Positions 18,431 through 47,013 of a stretch of DNA of 50,673 nt are shown here, one piece after another. Numbering within the stretch: position 1 is the first letter of the stretch; each line of letters opens with the position of its first letter. The stretch spans positions 1-50,673 of the forward strand of contig RPRB01000017.1 in NCBI GenBank assembly GCA_003818285.1, given 5' to 3'. The stretch is from Myxococcaceae bacterium. Lineage in GTDB: Bacteria; Myxococcota; Myxococcia; Myxococcales; Myxococcaceae. The notes beneath the pieces were generated by a model. It was given only the letters and a program-made list of their open reading frames with translations, was not told the origin of the DNA and did no database searches. The position numbers were made by a program, and so were the translations under genes.

Positions 18431-19929
18431 GCGGTCCACACCTCGCCCAGGGCCTCGGTCAGGTCGGAGGCGATGAGCCCCAGGCGTCCCCAGCGCCGGG
18501 CAGCGGCGTCGCCGGCGAGGCCGTGGGCCAGCACCCCGACGCTCGCCGCGTCCACCGGGGCGAGGCCCTGCGCGAGGAAGGCCCCCACCATCCCCGAGAG
18601 CACGTCTCCGGTGCCCCCGGTGGCCATCCCGGGATTTCCGGTGGGGTTCACCCGCACCTCTCCCGACGGATCGGCCACGACGGTGCGGGCCCCCTTGAGC
18701 ACGACCACCGCGTGGTGGGGCCGGGCGAAGGCGGTCGCGGCGGCGATGCGGTTTCCCTGGACCTCGCCGACGGTCTTGCCCGTGAGCCGCGCCATCTCCC
18801 CGGGATGGGGAGTCAGCACGGTCCGCGCCCGGCTCCGCGCGAGCAGCTCGGGATGGCTTGCGACGGCGTTCAGCGCGTCGGCGTCGAGGAGAACGGGGAC
18901 GTCCAGCCGGGCCAGTAGCTCGGCGAGGAGGACGTGGGTCTCCGGCCCGCGAGGGATGCCGGGACCGATGACCAGCGCGTCCTTCCCCTCGGCGGCCGCG
19001 AGCAGCGCGTCGAGGTGGGTGGGTCCGAGCACCGCGGATGCCGGGAGCGCCACTCCCATCAGCTCCGGCGCGTGACCCTGGACGTCGGAGAGCGCGTCCG
19101 CGGGTGTCGCCACCGTGCACAGCCCCACCCCGCTCCGCAGCGCCGCGACGCCGGCGAGCGCCGCCGCCCCGCTCTTCCCGCGGCTCCCGGCGACCACGAG
19201 GAGGTGGCCGTAGGTTCCCTTGTTCGTGTCGGAGCGACGGGGAGGGAGCCAGCGCGGACCGTCCTCGGGCTCGAGGAGCCAGGTCGAGGGGGTGAGCTCG
19301 GCGAGCCCGATGTCCGCGACCTCCACGCGGCCGGCGAGGGTGGCACCAGGCTCGAGCGCGAGGCCCAGCTTGCACGTTCCAAAAGTCATGGTGAGATCGG
19401 CGGCGACGCAGGGGTCGAAGGCGCGCCCGCTGTCGCTGGCGAGCCCGGAGGGAAGGTCCACCGCGAGGACCCGGACTTCCTCGGCGCGCCAGCGGAGCAT
19501 CGCCCGGATGGCGTCGGCGGCGTCGCCGTCGGGCGCGCGGGCCAGGCCGGTGCCGAACAGCGCGTCGATGACCACATCACCGGGCCGGAGCGCCAGCGCC
19601 GCGGCCGAGGCATGGACCGGGACCCCGCTCTGCTCCACTGCGGCGTGGTTCCGGGCGGCATCCCCCTTGAGACGCGCCGGGTCCCCCACCCGCCACACGT
19701 CGATCTGCCTCCCGGCGGCGTGGAGCTGGCGCGCCGCGACGTAGCCGTCACCGCCGTTGTTCCCCGGCCCGGCGACGACCAGGAACCTCGCCGCGGGGGC
19801 TCCGAGCGTCATCGCCGCCTCGGCCACCGCGGTCCCGGCGTTCTCCATCAGGATGGAGGCGGGCAGGCCGCGGCGCTCGGCCTCGGCCTCGGCGGTGCGC
19901 GTCTCGGCGGCGGTGAGGAGCGGTTGCAT
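18418..19929 (-). CDS. nnr: Bifunctional NAD(P)H-hydrate epimerase/dehydratase
   Basis: 503-residue repair enzyme for hydrated NADH and NADPH. The N-terminal YjeF_N epimerase domain (about 1-215) carries GPGNNGGDGYVAAR and LAVDLPSGL. The C-terminal ADP-dependent dehydratase (about 225-503) carries VLTPHPGEMARL and the signature NPGMATGGTGDVLSG. The length is that of the usual fused enzyme. It lies between acpS (99 bases upstream) and tsaE (13-base overlap). Confidence 0.95.
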   Translation of the reverse strand: MQPLLTAAETRTAEAEAERRGLPASILMENAGTAVAEAAMTLGAPAARFLVVAGPGNNGGDGYVAARQLHAAGRQIDVWRVGDPARLKGDAARNHAAVEQSGVPVHASAAALALRPGDVVIDALFGTGLARAPDGDAADAIRAMLRWRAEEVRVLAVDLPSGLASDSGRAFDPCVAADLTMTFGTCKLGLALEPGATLAGRVEVADIGLAELTPSTWLLEPEDGPRWLPPRRSDTNKGTYGHLLVVAGSRGKSGAAALAGVAALRSGVGLCTVATPADALSDVQGHAPELMGVALPASAVLGPTHLDALLAAAEGKDALVIGPGIPRGPETHVLLAELLARLDVPVLLDADALNAVASHPELLARSRARTVLTPHPGEMARLTGKTVGEVQGNRIAAATAFARPHHAVVVLKGARTVVADPSGEVRVNPTGNPGMATGGTGDVLSGMVGAFLAQGLAPVDAASVGVLAHGLAGDAAARRWGRLGLIASDLTEALGEVWTAWGR

Positions 19930-41174: not shown

Positions 41175-41563
41175 CGCTTCCCTCGCTGCTTGTCCAGCGG
41201 CACCACGCAGGTCCCGGTGGCACGGCAGACAACCACCGGCGTGGCAAGGACTTCCGCGGCGGACGAGGACACGTCGGGCAGCGGACGGATCACCTTCCGC
41301 GCCTCGAAGCGCATCTTCCGGCTGGTTCGCCCGACCTCGGTGATCTCCCCCTCCGCCTCGATGAAGTCCCCGGCGTGAACAGGGGCCAGGAACTCGACCG
41401 AGTCGTAGGCGCGGAACAGGCCCTCGTCGCCATCGTGCAGGATGCAGAGCTCGGTGGCGACGTCGCCGAACAGCGCGAGCATCCGCGCGCCGTCGACCAG
41501 GTTGCCGCCGTAGTGGGCGTCGTGGCTGGACATGCGCAGCCGGAGCACCGAACGCACGCTCAT
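41171..41563 (-). CDS. kal: 3-aminobutyryl-CoA ammonia-lyase
   Basis: 130-residue hotdog-fold enzyme that removes ammonia from L-3-aminobutyryl-CoA to give crotonyl-CoA. The sequence opens with [20 protein letters not shown], a hotdog active-site pattern (HYGGNLVDG), followed by [21 protein letters not shown]. The ATG at 41563 overlaps the kamE stop as ATGA, which settles the start against longer frames. The protein length equals the usual Kal. It is third in the coupled string kamD-kamE-kal-kce. Confidence 0.93.
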
Positions 41564-42342
41564 GCCGGCTCTCCCTCGAAGTGCAGATCCTCGGGCTCCT
41601 TGCCCATCTTCTTCAGCAGCGCGTGGACGATGTAGTTCGCCACGTCCGAGGGCTTGGTCCCCGGACCGAACCCGGCATCGAACCCGAGCTCCATCGCCAG
41701 CTTGTGATCCACGCGGGGGCCGCCGAGGAGCAGGATGGTCTTCCCCTTCAGCCCGTGCGCCTTGGCCACGTCGATGAACTGACGGCCGTTGTCCTTGTGG
41801 ACGTCGCGCTGGGTGACCACCTGAGAGACCAGGATGGCGTCGGCCTTCTGCTCCTCGGCCTTGCGGATCAGCTCCTCGTTCGGGACCTGGCTCCCCAGGT
41901 TGTAGGCCTCGAACCAGGGGTAGCGCTCCAGCCCGTAATCCCCGGCGTAGCCCTTCATGTTCAGGATGGCGTCGATGCCGACGGTATGGGTGTCGGTCCC
42001 GGTGCACGCGCCCAGGACCACCACTCGCCGGGCGACGCGGTCCTCGATGAGCTTGTTCAGCTCGTCGAACCCGAGCTTCCGGAAGACGATCTCCGGGACG
42101 TCGATGCTCGAATAGTCGAGCGACACGTCGGCCCGGCCGTAGACCACGAAGAAGGTGTAGTTGTCGGCCGCGGGCTCGGCGGCGGCCACCTTCACGTCCA
42201 GCAGGCCGAGCCGGGTGCAGAACTGCCGCGCGGCCTCCTTGGCCTTGTCGGAGAGCGGCACCGGCAGGGTGAACGAGAGCTGGATGACGCCGTCGTCCCG
42301 GCGGTCCCCGTAGGCGCGGATGGGGTGCGACTCGCCAGCCAT
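41560..42342 (-). CDS. kamE: Beta-lysine 5,6-aminomutase, beta (B12- and PLP-binding) subunit
   Basis: 260-residue subunit carrying both cofactors. The cobalamin motif DxHxxG is DTHTVG (Asp117, His119 as lower cobalt ligand). The PLP lysine is Lys130 in LNMKGYAGD, eleven residues after the His, the same spacing as His133/Lys144 in the Clostridium sticklandii enzyme. A C-terminal Rossmann half with [12 protein letters not shown] completes the B12 domain. The ATG shares one base with the kamD stop (TGATG). The complex moves the terminal amino group of beta-lysine to C5, giving 3,5-diaminohexanoate. Confidence 0.96.
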
Positions 42343-43892
42343 CAGCGCCCCTCCAGGATGTCGAGGAAAGGGTTGAAGTAGTCGGGCGACTTCTCCATCA
42401 CGCCCTCGAGCCCCTTCCCTCCGGTCTCGCTGCGCTTCACGTCCCCGAATCGGCCCTGGCCGATCGCCGCCACCAGGCCGTCCTGCCGGCACTCCTCGAG
42501 CAGCTCCATGGCCTTGCCGAACACGAAGCGAGCCCGGTTGGCGATCTTCCCGTCCTCGCGGACGACGAACTCCTCGTCGATGCCCCGGGCGGCGCGGTGG
42601 ATGTACCCCGCGGACTTCAGCGCCACGTAGCGGTCGCCCAGCAGCGGGGTGTGCATGGCCTCGGTCATCATCCCCAGGAGCTGGATGCCCTGTCGCGTCC
42701 AGATGGCCACCAGGTCAGCCATCACGTCGTAGGCGTGGCTGAAGAAGATATCCGTCTCCTTGTGCTTGGTGGGCGGCATGTACTTCAGGGGCGCGTCGGG
42801 GAAGCAGCGGCGGATGAGCATCGCCTGGCTCAGCTCGAGGAGCAGCGTCTCCGGTCGGTGGGGGTCGATCTCGTAGCTGTGGCCGAGGCCCAGCTGCCAG
42901 TCTTGCAGGCCCGCGCGCTTGGCGAAGGCCTCGTTGATGAACTGGCTGGCGATGACGGTGTGCGCGGCGTCGTAGGCGTCGGCGGTGGTGATGTAGTTGT
43001 CCTCGCCGGTGTTGATGATGATGCCGGCGAGCGCGCAGATGCGGCGGCTGAAGTACTGGTCGATGAACGTCCGACGCATGTTGATGTCCCGGAACAGGAT
43101 TCCGTACATCGCGTCGTTGAGGAGCATATCCAGCTTCTCCCAGGCCGCGGCGAAGGCGATCTCCGCCATGCAGAGGCCCGAGGAGTAGTTGGTGAGCTGG
43201 ATGTAGCGCTTGAGCCGGCGGGATTCGGCGTCGAGCGCCTCCCGCATGATCCGGAAGTTCTCCTGGGTGGCGTAGGTGCCGCCGTAGCCCTCGGAGGTCG
43301 CTCCGTGTGGCACGTAATCGAGGAGCGACTGCGCGGTGCTGCGGATGACCGCGATGATGTCCGCCCCGGCCTGGGCCGCGGCACGGGCCTGGTCCACGTC
43401 GTCGTAGATGTTGCCGGTGGCGACGATGACGTAGCGGTGCGGCGCCGGTGACATCGGGTACTCGCGGCGGAGCGCGTCACGCTCGTCGATGCGACGGCGG
43501 AGCTCGTCCACCGCGGCCTCGGCCTCACGGCGGACCTCAGCGCGGAGGTTGCCCTCCATCTCCGCCGAGAGCGGGGCGAGTTTCCCGGCCGGAAGCGCGG
43601 CGATGCGCTCCACCGCATCGAGCGGGCTCGCCGCCCCGAGCTGCAGCGCCCGCGCGTACCAGTAGGCCGCGCCGCGGTTGAGGACGCCGGCCGCCTTGAG
43701 GCGGTCGGTCATCAGATTGGTGAGGGGAATCCCGCCCGGGCCGGCATCGGACATCCCGAACAGGCGCAGGACGGTGCGCTCCACCGAGATGGTGGTGTGC
43801 CGGCGGATCAGATCGAAGACCGGCTCGATGACCTGGGACGCGATGCCGCGGGCCTGGGCGACCCGGGCGTCGTCGACGAAGGGTCCTGGCAT
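42342..43892 (-). CDS. kamD: Beta-lysine 5,6-aminomutase, alpha subunit
   Basis: 516-residue TIM-barrel subunit housing the radical chemistry of adenosylcobalamin-dependent 5,6-aminomutase; the length agrees with known KamD. Characteristic stretches are [72 protein letters not shown] and [20 protein letters not shown] (each shortened here). ATG at 43892 matches the family N-terminus; the open frame extends to 44135 with implausible sequence. First gene of the operon, divergent from the Rieske/FAD gene. Ornithine 4,5-aminomutase is the related alternative, excluded by the two-gene layout and the kal/kce neighbours. Confidence 0.96.
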
Positions 43893-44113
43893 GACCTCAC
43901 ACCCGTAACCTACCCGGCACACCCGGGGCAACCGAGCCCGGGGTCTCTGCCCGCACGGCCGAGGCAGACTCAGCGCGTCGAACCTCCGAAGACAGCTCTC
44001 CAGGTCCCCGATGAGTCGAAGCAGGATGACGCACCACCAACCTTCGGAATGGAATCCGCTCGCCTGTCGGCCGCCGCCGGGGTCATCCTTCCGGGGCACG
44101 GAGGACACCCGCG
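43893..44113. promoter_or_regulatory. Divergent promoter region of the kam operon and the Rieske/FAD gene
   Basis: 221 bases between divergent starts. A GC hairpin-like CCCGGGG/CCCCGGG pair around 43920-43943 lies upstream of kamD. I see no convincing sigma-54 site, and no -35/-10 pair at proper spacing. Confidence 0.35.
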
Positions 44114-45658
44114 ATGAGTGAGCCGCTCCAGGCATCCGGTCCCGAGCTGTCGAAGGGAATCGAGCTGGCCGACATCCCCGACGGAGGAATGCTCACCGCG
44201 CAGGTGAATGGAGAACCCGTCGTCGCGGTGCGCCGGGGCGAGGAGGTCTTCGTGCTCGCCGCGAAGTGTGGCCATTACGGTGCTCCCCTGTGGGACGGGA
44301 TCGTCGTGGGCACCGAGGTGCGCTGTCCGTGGCACCACGCGCGCTTCGACGTCCGGACCGGAGAGGCGGTGGGACCGCCCTCCCCTCGCGGACTGGCGAC
44401 GTGGCTGGTGGTGCGCGAGGGCTCGCGCGTCCGTGCGGGCGCGCGCCGGGAGCCGACGGCCCCGCGCGCGGTCAAGAATGCGCCGTTCTCGGTGCTCATC
44501 GTCGGAGCGGGCGCGGCGGGTGACGCCTGCGCGGAGCAGCTCCGCCGCCGCGGATACGACGGCCCCATCACGCTCGTTGCCAAGGACGGCGAGGGCTGGC
44601 CGCTGGACAGACCCAACATGTCCAAGGACGTGCTGGCCGGCACGGCGCCGGACGAGTGGCTCCCCATCCGCGGTGGCGAGTTCTATGCGAATCACCGCAT
44701 CGAGCTCGTGGAGGCGGAGGTCACCCGGCTGGATACCGGGGCGAGGCAGGCGCACCTGGCCGATGGACGTTCCCTGCCGTTCGGGGTCGCGCTCCTCGCC
44801 ACCGGCGCCGCTCCCATCCGCCTGCCGATTCCCGGCGCGGACCTGCCGCACGTGCACGTGCTGCGGACGCTCGGGGACATGAAGGGCATCATCGCGGCGC
44901 TCCGCCCTGGCCTGAAGGCCGCGGTCGTGGGGGCGAGCTTCATCGGCCTCGAGGTTGCGGCGTCCCTTCGCGCCCGGCAGGTGGAGGTGACGGTCATCGC
45001 GCCGGAGAGCCGCCCGCTCGAGCGGGTGCTCGGGCCGGAGCTGGGCGCGTTCGTTCAGTCGCTTCACGAGGAGAAGGGCGTGCGGTTCCACCTCGGCCGC
45101 AAGCCCACGGCCATCGCCGCGTCGGCCGTGACCTGCGACGACGGGTCCACCGTTCCCGCCGAGCTGGTCATCATGGGCGTCGGTGTGCGGCCAAGCGTGT
45201 CGGTCGCGGAGAAGAGCGGGCTCAAGGTCGATCGCGGGGTGGTGGTGGACGCGAACCTGCGAACCAGCGCGCCCGGCGTCTGGGCGGCGGGTGACATCGC
45301 GCGTTTCCCGCGCGGTGATACGTCGTGGCGCATCGAGCACTGGGTGGTCGCCGAGCAGCAGGGGCAGGTCGCGGCGCGGGACATGCTCGGGGTGGGCGCC
45401 CCGTACGGGCACGTGCCGTTCTTCTGGAGCCAGCACTACGACGTGCCCATCAATTACGTCGGGCACGCCGAGACCTGGGACGCCGCCCAGGTCGCGGGCT
45501 CGCTGGCGGACCGGAACGTGCTCGTCGCCTACCGGCAGGGCGGCCGCATCGAGGCGATGGCCAGCATTTACCGGGACCGGGACAGCCTTCTGGCCGAGGA
45601 CGCACTGGGCCGGAACGATCAGCCCGCGCTCGAGCAGCTGATGCGCTCGGTGAGCTGA
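44114..45658 (+). CDS. Rieske ferredoxin-fused FAD/NAD-dependent oxidoreductase (AIFM3-like)
   Basis: 514-residue flavoprotein. The N-terminal Rieske [2Fe-2S] domain has both ligand pairs: Cys52-Gly-His54 (KCGHYG) and Cys71-Pro-Trp-His74 (CPWHHARF). The pyridine nucleotide-disulfide reductase part has an FAD loop GAGAAG (131-136), a second dinucleotide loop GASFIG (273-278), and the FAD-contact motif VWAAGDIARFP. The C-terminal dimer domain includes FFWSQHYD. This is the layout of AIFM3-type ferredoxin reductases. It is divergent from the kam operon; a link as redox partner is possible but unproven. It converges with kdd. Confidence 0.92.
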   Translation: MSEPLQASGPELSKGIELADIPDGGMLTAQVNGEPVVAVRRGEEVFVLAAKCGHYGAPLWDGIVVGTEVRCPWHHARFDVRTGEAVGPPSPRGLATWLVVREGSRVRAGARREPTAPRAVKNAPFSVLIVGAGAAGDACAEQLRRRGYDGPITLVAKDGEGWPLDRPNMSKDVLAGTAPDEWLPIRGGEFYANHRIELVEAEVTRLDTGARQAHLADGRSLPFGVALLATGAAPIRLPIPGADLPHVHVLRTLGDMKGIIAALRPGLKAAVVGASFIGLEVAASLRARQVEVTVIAPESRPLERVLGPELGAFVQSLHEEKGVRFHLGRKPTAIAASAVTCDDGSTVPAELVIMGVGVRPSVSVAEKSGLKVDRGVVVDANLRTSAPGVWAAGDIARFPRGDTSWRIEHWVVAEQQGQVAARDMLGVGAPYGHVPFFWSQHYDVPINYVGHAETWDAAQVAGSLADRNVLVAYRQGGRIEAMASIYRDRDSLLAEDALGRNDQPALEQLMRSVS

Positions 45659-45981
45659 AGCCCGGATCGAGCCGGGAGCCGCGATGGGTTCGCGCGGCCG
45701 CGGCCCCGAACGCTGCCTCTCGCGGGGAGAGGATCTGGAGAGGCCTGGATCGAACGCCCAGAGGCTATCGCCACAACTCACACACGGCGTGGAACGACCA
45801 AACCAGGGTCTGCTGGGTTAGCGAGCCGCTCCACGCACTCCTTGTCGAGGTTGTTGCGATTGCCTCTGGGCGTTTGGGTGGCGGCCCCAGAGCCCTCGGA
45901 CCCCGCAGGCCGTCAGTCCAGGTCGGACGCCCGGACCGAGGATCGCTCGCGTCCCTCCCCGGTGCAGGCCGGCCCTGCGCC
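45659..45981. other. Gap between convergent oxidoreductase and kdd genes
   Basis: 323 bases without a gene. The centre holds the long inverted-repeat element at 45751-45876; flanks are GC-rich with no T-run terminator. Confidence 0.6.
45751..45876. repeat. 126-base imperfect palindrome, MITE-like
   Basis: AACGCCCAGAGGC (45753-45765) is exactly inverted at 45862-45874. Pairing continues inward with ATCGC and ACAAC through to 45777/45850, broken by only two mismatches. A separate inner inverted repeat GCGTGGA/TCCACGC (45787-45793 with 45830-45836) nests inside. No clear target-site duplication is seen. It could be a miniature inverted-repeat element or a bidirectional terminator for the two convergent genes. 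Confidence 0.7.
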
Positions 45982-47013
45982 TCAGAGATAGCGCGCGGCG
46001 AAGAACTCCCGCAGCCGCGCGTCGGTCCGGAGCAGGTCGAGCGTGAGGTCGGCGTGCCCCGGCACGTACCCGTTCCCGATCAGCATCGTCAGGTCCTTCC
46101 CCACTCCCTCGGCCCCCAGCGCCGCCGCTGTGAAGGACGTGGCCATGGAGAAGAAGATCGCCGTCCCGCCTTCCCGGGTGGAGAGGACCGTGGCCATCTC
46201 CGTCCCCGGGACGGACGCGCAGTTGATCACCAGGTCGCAGAGCGCACCCCCGGTGGCGTTGCGGACCGCCTCGAGCACGTCCACCGCCTTCGTGGCGTCC
46301 ACCCGGAGGCTCACGTCCGACACGCCCAGCTCGACCAGGGCGGAGAGCGCCTTCTCCGAGATGTCGAGCGCGAGGAGCTGCCCCCTCCCGCCGGTGCTCC
46401 GCCGCGCCTGGGCGAGGCACAGCGCGCCGCTCTTCCCTGCCCCGAGCACCGCGATCCGCATCCCCGGCTGGGCGTGGCGCGCGACCAGCGCCGGCGCGCC
46501 GCAGACATCGAGCGCGGCGAGCACCAGCGTCTCCGGCATGTCGTCCGGCACCCGCGCCCAGATGCCGCTGGCGAAGAGGATGGCGTGCCCCCTCACGTCG
46601 ATCCGGTCCACCTCCATCCGGGCGCCGCGCACCTCGTCGATGACCAGCGGGGTGAGCGACAGGCTCACGAGCGTCGCGATGCGCTCGCCGGGCCGTACCT
46701 TCCCGTGTGCCGGGTGCTCGGGGCCGACCTCGCGGACCCGGCCCAGCAGCATGCCTCCCGAGCCGGTCACCGGGTTCTGCATCTTTCCCCGGCTGCGGAC
46801 GATCTCCTGGATGCGTGCGACCACCGCCCCCGCCTGGCCGCCGGACGATTCCCGGATCTGCTTGAAGGACGCCGCATCGACGTTGAGGCTCTCCACGTCG
46901 ATCAGCATCTCGTCGCGGCGAATGGGGAGCGACGCGTCCAGGCGCTGCGCGCGCTGGGGCAGCACGCCCGGCTCGCCGACCACGCGGTCCAGTCCGTAGG
47001 GGTCTCCAGCCAC
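45982..47013 (-). CDS. kdd: L-erythro-3,5-diaminohexanoate dehydrogenase
   Basis: 343-residue NAD(P)-dependent dehydrogenase that oxidatively deaminates 3,5-diaminohexanoate to 5-amino-3-oxohexanoate, the step between KamDE and Kce. The fold is that of zinc-independent medium-chain dehydrogenases: LDASLPIRRDEMLIDVESLN is the family N-terminus, GRVREVGPEHP and the Rossmann loop RIAVLGAGKSGALC are present, and VPGTEMATVLSTREGGTAIF follows. The start is GTG. Separated from the kam operon by the Rieske/FAD gene and the palindrome, it is probably transcribed on its own, 72 bases after the esterase stop. Confidence 0.92.
   Translation of the reverse strand: MAGDPYGLDRVVGEPGVLPQRAQRLDASLPIRRDEMLIDVESLNVDAASFKQIRESSGGQAGAVVARIQEIVRSRGKMQNPVTGSGGMLLGRVREVGPEHPAHGKVRPGERIATLVSLSLTPLVIDEVRGARMEVDRIDVRGHAILFASGIWARVPDDMPETLVLAALDVCGAPALVARHAQPGMRIAVLGAGKSGALCLAQARRSTGGRGQLLALDISEKALSALVELGVSDVSLRVDATKAVDVLEAVRNATGGALCDLVINCASVPGTEMATVLSTREGGTAIFFSMATSFTAAALGAEGVGKDLTMLIGNGYVPGHADLTLDLLRTDARLREFFAARYL

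Follow-up and report, generated by a model that had tools for sequence, protein, structure and literature searches.

A dispersed 118-bp palindromic DNA element of nearly constant length, found in one myxobacterial genus among those searched

The palindrome and its neighbouring genes

In the stretch of DNA analysed here (50,673 nucleotides from a Myxococcaceae bacterium, contig RPRB01000017.1; hereafter the window), a gap of 323 bp separates a Rieske/FAD-dependent reductase gene from the gene for L-erythro-3,5-diaminohexanoate dehydrogenase and harbours a nested palindrome. As stated in the preliminary description, and in agreement with our gene calls, the two genes are convergent. The dehydrogenase gene (45982-47013, minus strand) is part of a set of lysine-fermentation genes at 41560-47013, which also includes lysine 5,6-aminomutase alpha (42342-44135, minus strand) and beta (41560-42492, minus strand). 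The locus comprises the following features:

44114..45658, plus strand: Rieske/FAD-dependent reductase gene, left neighbour
45753..45759, no strand: outer pairing bases, variable between copies, which tend to complement 45868-45874 (copy comparison)
45753..45791, plus strand: left arm (inverted-repeat search and family consensus)
45755..45872, no strand: palindromic repeat element of 118 bp, the unit common to the copies (family alignment)
45760-45867, no strand: 108-bp core AGAGG...CCTCT, part of the 118-bp element
45788..45835, no strand: nested inner inverted repeat CGTGGA (45788-45793) / TCCACG (45830-45835)
45836..45874, minus strand: right arm, an inverted copy of the left-arm consensus (inverted-repeat search and family consensus)
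45886..45920, minus strand: diverged box B (see below), directed at the palindrome (by eye)
45982..47013, minus strand: L-erythro-3,5-diaminohexanoate dehydrogenase gene, right neighbour

The two arms, of 39 nt each, are 79% complementary and spaced by 44 nt, and their outermost 13 bases form the perfect inversion already reported in the preliminary description. The nested repeat that it reported is likewise present, just the GTG/CAC portion being largely common to the family described below. That such a structure exceeds chance for an intergenic gap also held up, as the ungapped palindrome score was 19 compared to a maximum of 12 in 300 dinucleotide shuffles (0/300 matching it). Across the whole window (400-base tiles, span up to 140), this palindrome was the top ungapped inverted repeat; the second by score (14), at 18441-18577, is GC-rich. 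The folding z for 45745-45885 was -4.2 for RNA and -4.6 for DNA, and none of 200 shuffles reached either value.

Copies of the element and their length

Searching the source genome (5.77 Mb in 502 contigs, rated 100% complete) at once turned up diverged relatives of the window palindrome. Using a sequence profile without structure, made from 20 copies selected at 118 bp (R1), we found at least 20 full copies of the element in the source genome and at least six in the congener G001, so that the search for further copies proposed in the preliminary description was clearly productive. Besides these full copies, R1 detected a half copy on contig C46 and a weak partial relative on C49 of the source genome. 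A second, strongly diverged relative (L049:1617-1735), whose arms differ yet stay complementary, is separated from the C49 copy by about 150 bp and is single, with no further match in the source genome or in G001.

No full copy was found in the other genera examined. In an R1 scan of 98 genomes under stricter filters, in which 35 candidates per genome were scored, 93 genomes were without a match, and the single weak matches in G007, G056 and G086 were read as chance from inspection of the sequences, the one in G007 resembling a gene by eye. A variable-gap pattern (gap 88-118 bp, total 108-138 bp) applied to 98 genomes matched 11 places in the source genome and one in G001, all 12 of these genus copies being 118 bp long; a 122-bp match in G075 was taken as chance. 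When a collection of 84,980 species, from which the source genome is possibly absent, was scanned with a pattern, the sole match was the MAG Chersky_276 ('Myxococcaceae bacterium'), and the contigs of G001 equal those of this MAG, the four loci compared being identical. The arm pattern was not found in viral contigs, and with the window copy as sole query no match was obtained in plasmids and phages or, at E 0.01, in a collection of E. coli genomes. In a literature search, with most subscription journals outside its coverage, no described myxobacterial repeat of this kind was among the titles listed; a repetitive sequence of M. xanthus was reportedly described in 1991, and an msDNA-like repeat of Nannocystis reportedly in 1997.

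Read inward, both arms follow the consensus CGCYCAGAGGYWATAGCMACAACTnnGACnnnnnGTG, which is kept in both arms even at positions where the arms mismatch each other. The interior has a median identity of 0.50 (range 0.36-0.94; 72 positions, 18 copies), and the centre of the element is asymmetric and contains a few invariant bases. The length, in contrast, hardly varies: 25 of 26 copies have a net core of 108 bp and the remaining one (G001:C290) has 107 bp, small compensating gaps being present inside G001:C34 in the R1 profile alignment. R1, being derived from copies of a single length, could miss those of other lengths; the length-free searches argue against many such copies. In a length-free search with a single arm, 26 of the 27 arm matches at one mismatch or fewer sit in pairs spanning exactly 118 bp, the exception being on C45. 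Arm matches with two or three mismatches were excluded (totals of 51 and 70, close to control values of 58 and 46), the single-arm pattern being at chance level at three mismatches.

The outer 7 bp beyond the core vary but tend to pair, with 118 of 168 cells complementary compared to about 84 expected and P of 0.021 or lower at offsets 2, 3, 5, 6 and 7 (not at 1 and 4), values that are inflated by kinship of the copies; the near-duplicates L029 and L033 were dropped from these and from the interior-helix counts. No interior helix rose above a column-shuffle null, and the consensus fold consisted of the outer stem alone, with a covariation term of -0.08. At least one two-sided change is present in 5 of 17 consensus pairs; pair 4-115 (C-G/U-A change, P 0.006) was the sole pair at P < 0.05 among 59 tested, and 16 of 18 copies have C-G or U-G at position 11-108. 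In a mutual-information scan (L029, L033, L078, L086 and L091 dropped), the top pair, 0-119, remained within the null maxima. An interior RNA fold was rejected on these grounds, and of the stem covariation that the preliminary description had proposed to examine, the outer bases display a tendency and the interior none above the null. One outcome was named there as speaking against a mobile element, namely a lone copy that stays in place and shows compensatory changes; with many copies present and no interior helix above the null, our data do not match this outcome as a whole.

With genes called by a codon score whose training set was six genes of the window, and with an overlap of up to 20 bases tolerated, all 26 copies lie outside called genes. 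The 22 copies with both neighbours called lie between convergent (7), co-directional (14) or divergent (1) genes, which indicates that few copies are located at promoters. Relative to co-directional genes (n=14), the element has the same polarity in six cases and the opposite one in eight, no strand preference being detected.

Gene gaps with and without the element

Comparison with empty sites, also proposed in the preliminary description, revealed shorter gaps without the element at two gene pairs. The trpB-trpA gap of the source genome measures 570 bp and holds the element, and the spacing is 541-577 bp shorter in 20/20 other genomes in which a single contig carries matches to both genes. 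R1 detected no element in 12 trp loci (L103-L114), ten of which belong to these 20 genomes; in G001 (L103), trpA has a different upstream gene and is without a matched trpB. On C43, the element begins 1 bp past a stop codon, between convergent genes 158 bp apart. The same genes are 9 bp apart in G001, equivalent to a net gain of about 149 bp, and have abutting stops in G003, and R1 finds no element in either counterpart. The matched ends are 181 bp apart in G012 vs 285 bp in the source genome, and 429 bp apart in G004 vs 343 bp, again without an element detected by R1. From gene spacing, the trpB-trpA and C43 differences are read as gains in the source lineage, unless AGCCTCTCGG, which G001 contains at the C43 locus on a contig ending about 210 bases past the gap, is a remnant of the element, which would mean loss in G001. 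Apparently, the element has come to occupy gene gaps that formerly lacked it. At the counterpart of the window locus, the G001 dehydrogenase gene has another neighbour gene, without the element.

Two gene gaps carry the element in both species (C149/G001:C384 and C81/G001:C34), their non-coding flanks being without alignment at the search threshold, and the elements paired across orthologous gaps are not each other's nearest relatives. In view of this shared occupancy, some copies may also be tolerated, or used, where they are. Polarity is opposite between the species at 2/2 clear orthologous gaps (L008/L084 and L078/L091), as it is in a third, weaker pair (L034/L086).

In line with the preliminary description, which saw no evident target duplication, no consistent one was obtained in 1792 length/offset tests on 25 copies (L029 excluded; best z 3.2); same-register direct repeats occur in single copies (6 bp in L007, 5 bp in L026). 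The idea of a palindromic target was set aside, the short pattern ACGCYC-N-GRGCGT being present at 178 places of the source genome vs 58 for a reversed control, counts that proved uninformative. Neither a gene flanked by the arms of the element nor a related insertion sequence was found in the assembly.

The source genome encodes four RAYT-like Y1_Tnp proteins of 306-307 aa (L053, L054, L055 and L056), one of which, when tested, scored 70.5 bits vs the cut-off of 80 for NCBIfam REP_Tyr_transpos. All four loci are without an R1 match and contain just 11-12 base matches to flanks. Each of these genes has an identical repeat of 17-20 bp upstream and downstream, centred on GGTGyC...rCACC in three of the four, which we regard as a separate REP-like system. 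As these loci lack the element and have different repeats of their own, a RAYT/REPIN link was rejected.

Relation to known repeats and possible explanations

In behaviour, the nearest known kinds are ERIC and the REPINs, although the element does not qualify as a member of either. ERIC (RU-1) is a 127-bp enterobacterial intergenic repeat with an inverted-repeat hairpin, of which E. coli K-12 has tens of copies (PMC10969869, PMC2759123). The element is similar in size, hairpin and intergenic placement; unlike ERIC, it resides in a host of another phylum, its window copy found no match in E. coli genomes, and its interior has diverged to about 50% identity at a held length, the length behaviour of ERIC being outside this comparison. 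Like the element, ERIC is not known to have an autonomous partner. REPINs, which are REP doublets forming a hairpin, have two conserved ends in inverted orientation, set apart by a spacer at preferred distances of 71 and 110 bp in SBW25, and are potentially hairpin-forming (PMC3116915). The element shares inverted conserved ends at fixed spacing, whereas its arms are 39 bp long instead of an invariant 16-mer overlapping a REP, and no copy is near a RAYT-like gene. As for the MITE-like nature proposed in the preliminary description, the element is short, non-coding, multi-copy, dispersed and intergenic, has inverted ends, and varies in presence between relatives, with gains at trpB-trpA and C43; a consistent target duplication and an autonomous relative bearing the same ends are lacking. 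It is therefore MITE-like, with MITE membership unproven. Integron attC sites are imperfect palindromes of about 120 bp with a variable interior and the end boxes RYYYAAC/GTTRRRY. Size and variable interior are comparable in the element, but such boxes are not at its ends by eye, and attC was set aside on this comparison; its copies are solitary except on C49.

The element is dispersed, its presence coincides with sequence gain, and it is restricted to one genus among those searched. We consider it fairly probable that it is a non-autonomous, ERIC/REPIN-like palindromic DNA element confined, as far as searched, to one myxobacterial genus. A putative trans-acting enzyme would recognise both arms of 39 bp, whether folded into a single DNA hairpin or as a pair of sites a fixed distance apart; the process would be transposition, and the length would gauge the hairpin or paired complex. 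Given this demand on spacing, a copy would stay functional only at the right length, and the interior would be free to drift except for a few contact bases. Besides the missing target duplication, the missing arm-flanked gene and the Y1_Tnp loci without copies, several observations count against mobility: both gains exceed 118 bp, AGCCTCTCGG is a possible remnant, the outer covariation is kinship-inflated with pair 0-119 within the null, and the only near-identical pair of copies, C73/C213, has both flanks in common (94% over 314 bp) and thus looks like segmental duplication, not transposition. The tendency of the outer bases to covary and the almost exact length also speak against a purely selfish element.

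Alternatively, although with clearly lower probability, the mobile unit may be larger, about 0.4-0.5 kb, with an inward-facing box B at one end or at both and the palindrome as its best-preserved centre. Box B is a motif around CCGnnCGGCCTGCGCGACCTCGGGCGCTCC; in the window it contains CGGCCTGCG exactly and was overlooked by the ungapped matrix. It occurs near 14 of 26 copies, 16/16 matches are directed at the palindrome, and it is present on both sides in L008 and L029 (matrix) and C69 (by eye). The 570-bp trpB-trpA gap holds a box B, and four copies (L024, L029, L033 and L034) have longer flanks in common, as duplicated intergenic blocks. The matrix was made from boxes of the same copies, which renders presence, but not direction, partly circular. 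The threshold was 7, and a closely similar matrix gave values of up to 9.1 on 60 control stretches, so that box B scores near 10 (L007, L008 left, L086, L026) are weak; the direction rule holds for all 12 matches scoring above 19, which belong to 11 copies. The distance to the palindrome is however variable (48-428 bp), 12 copies are without a match, the C43 copy shows a net gain of about 149 bp and no box B match, and the flanks contain no significant long inverted repeat of a larger unit (0/26 beat the best of 40 shuffles). Box B is also found without the palindrome, and genome-wide its pattern at three mismatches (30 vs 19 in the control) is not far above background. In the congener, L142:675-1047 contains an inward-pointing box B pair and no palindrome match. 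Box B may be a marker of the larger unit or an accessory site.

Rather unlikely, in our estimation, are host-maintained DNA sites, never or no longer mobile, at which a protein with a chromosomal or regulatory role, acting as a dimer or tetramer, would bind two inverted 39-bp half sites at fixed spacing. Such sites would fit the arm sequence kept in both arms, also at arm-arm mismatches, the invariant interior bases, and a near-exact length although flanks no longer align; the two orthologous gaps occupied in both species are what in-place function expects, and argue against a purely selfish element as well. They fit poorly with the gain at trpB-trpA and between convergent genes nearly touching in two relatives, with the absence of full copies from the other genera searched, and with a single divergent gene pair in 22.

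Opposite polarity at orthologous gaps raises the prospect, which we judge improbable, that the element represents a novel, length-gauged class of palindrome with an inverting central segment, in which a recombinase or replication-linked process may both spread the element and invert it in place, with box B as an accessory site.

A structured RNA or the dedicated bidirectional terminator put forward in the preliminary description is very unlikely: strong hairpin potential, the two-sided changes, pairs 4-115 and 11-108, outer-base covariation and 7 of 22 convergent gene pairs are in its favour, but the fold is restricted to the outer stem, polarity is mixed, Rfam returned no match, the window copy (the copy checked) has no terminator-like site with a T-tail, and a terminator requires neither the fixed length nor the fixed arm sequence that the element holds.

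To our knowledge, small palindromic repeats such as ERIC are still without a known mobiliser. The present family offers a compact test case, with about two dozen copies, a clear rule of length and gains that can be assigned to named gene pairs. Its 118-bp element is nearly constant in size to the base even though the interior falls to about 50% identity, a combination that any mechanism must explain.
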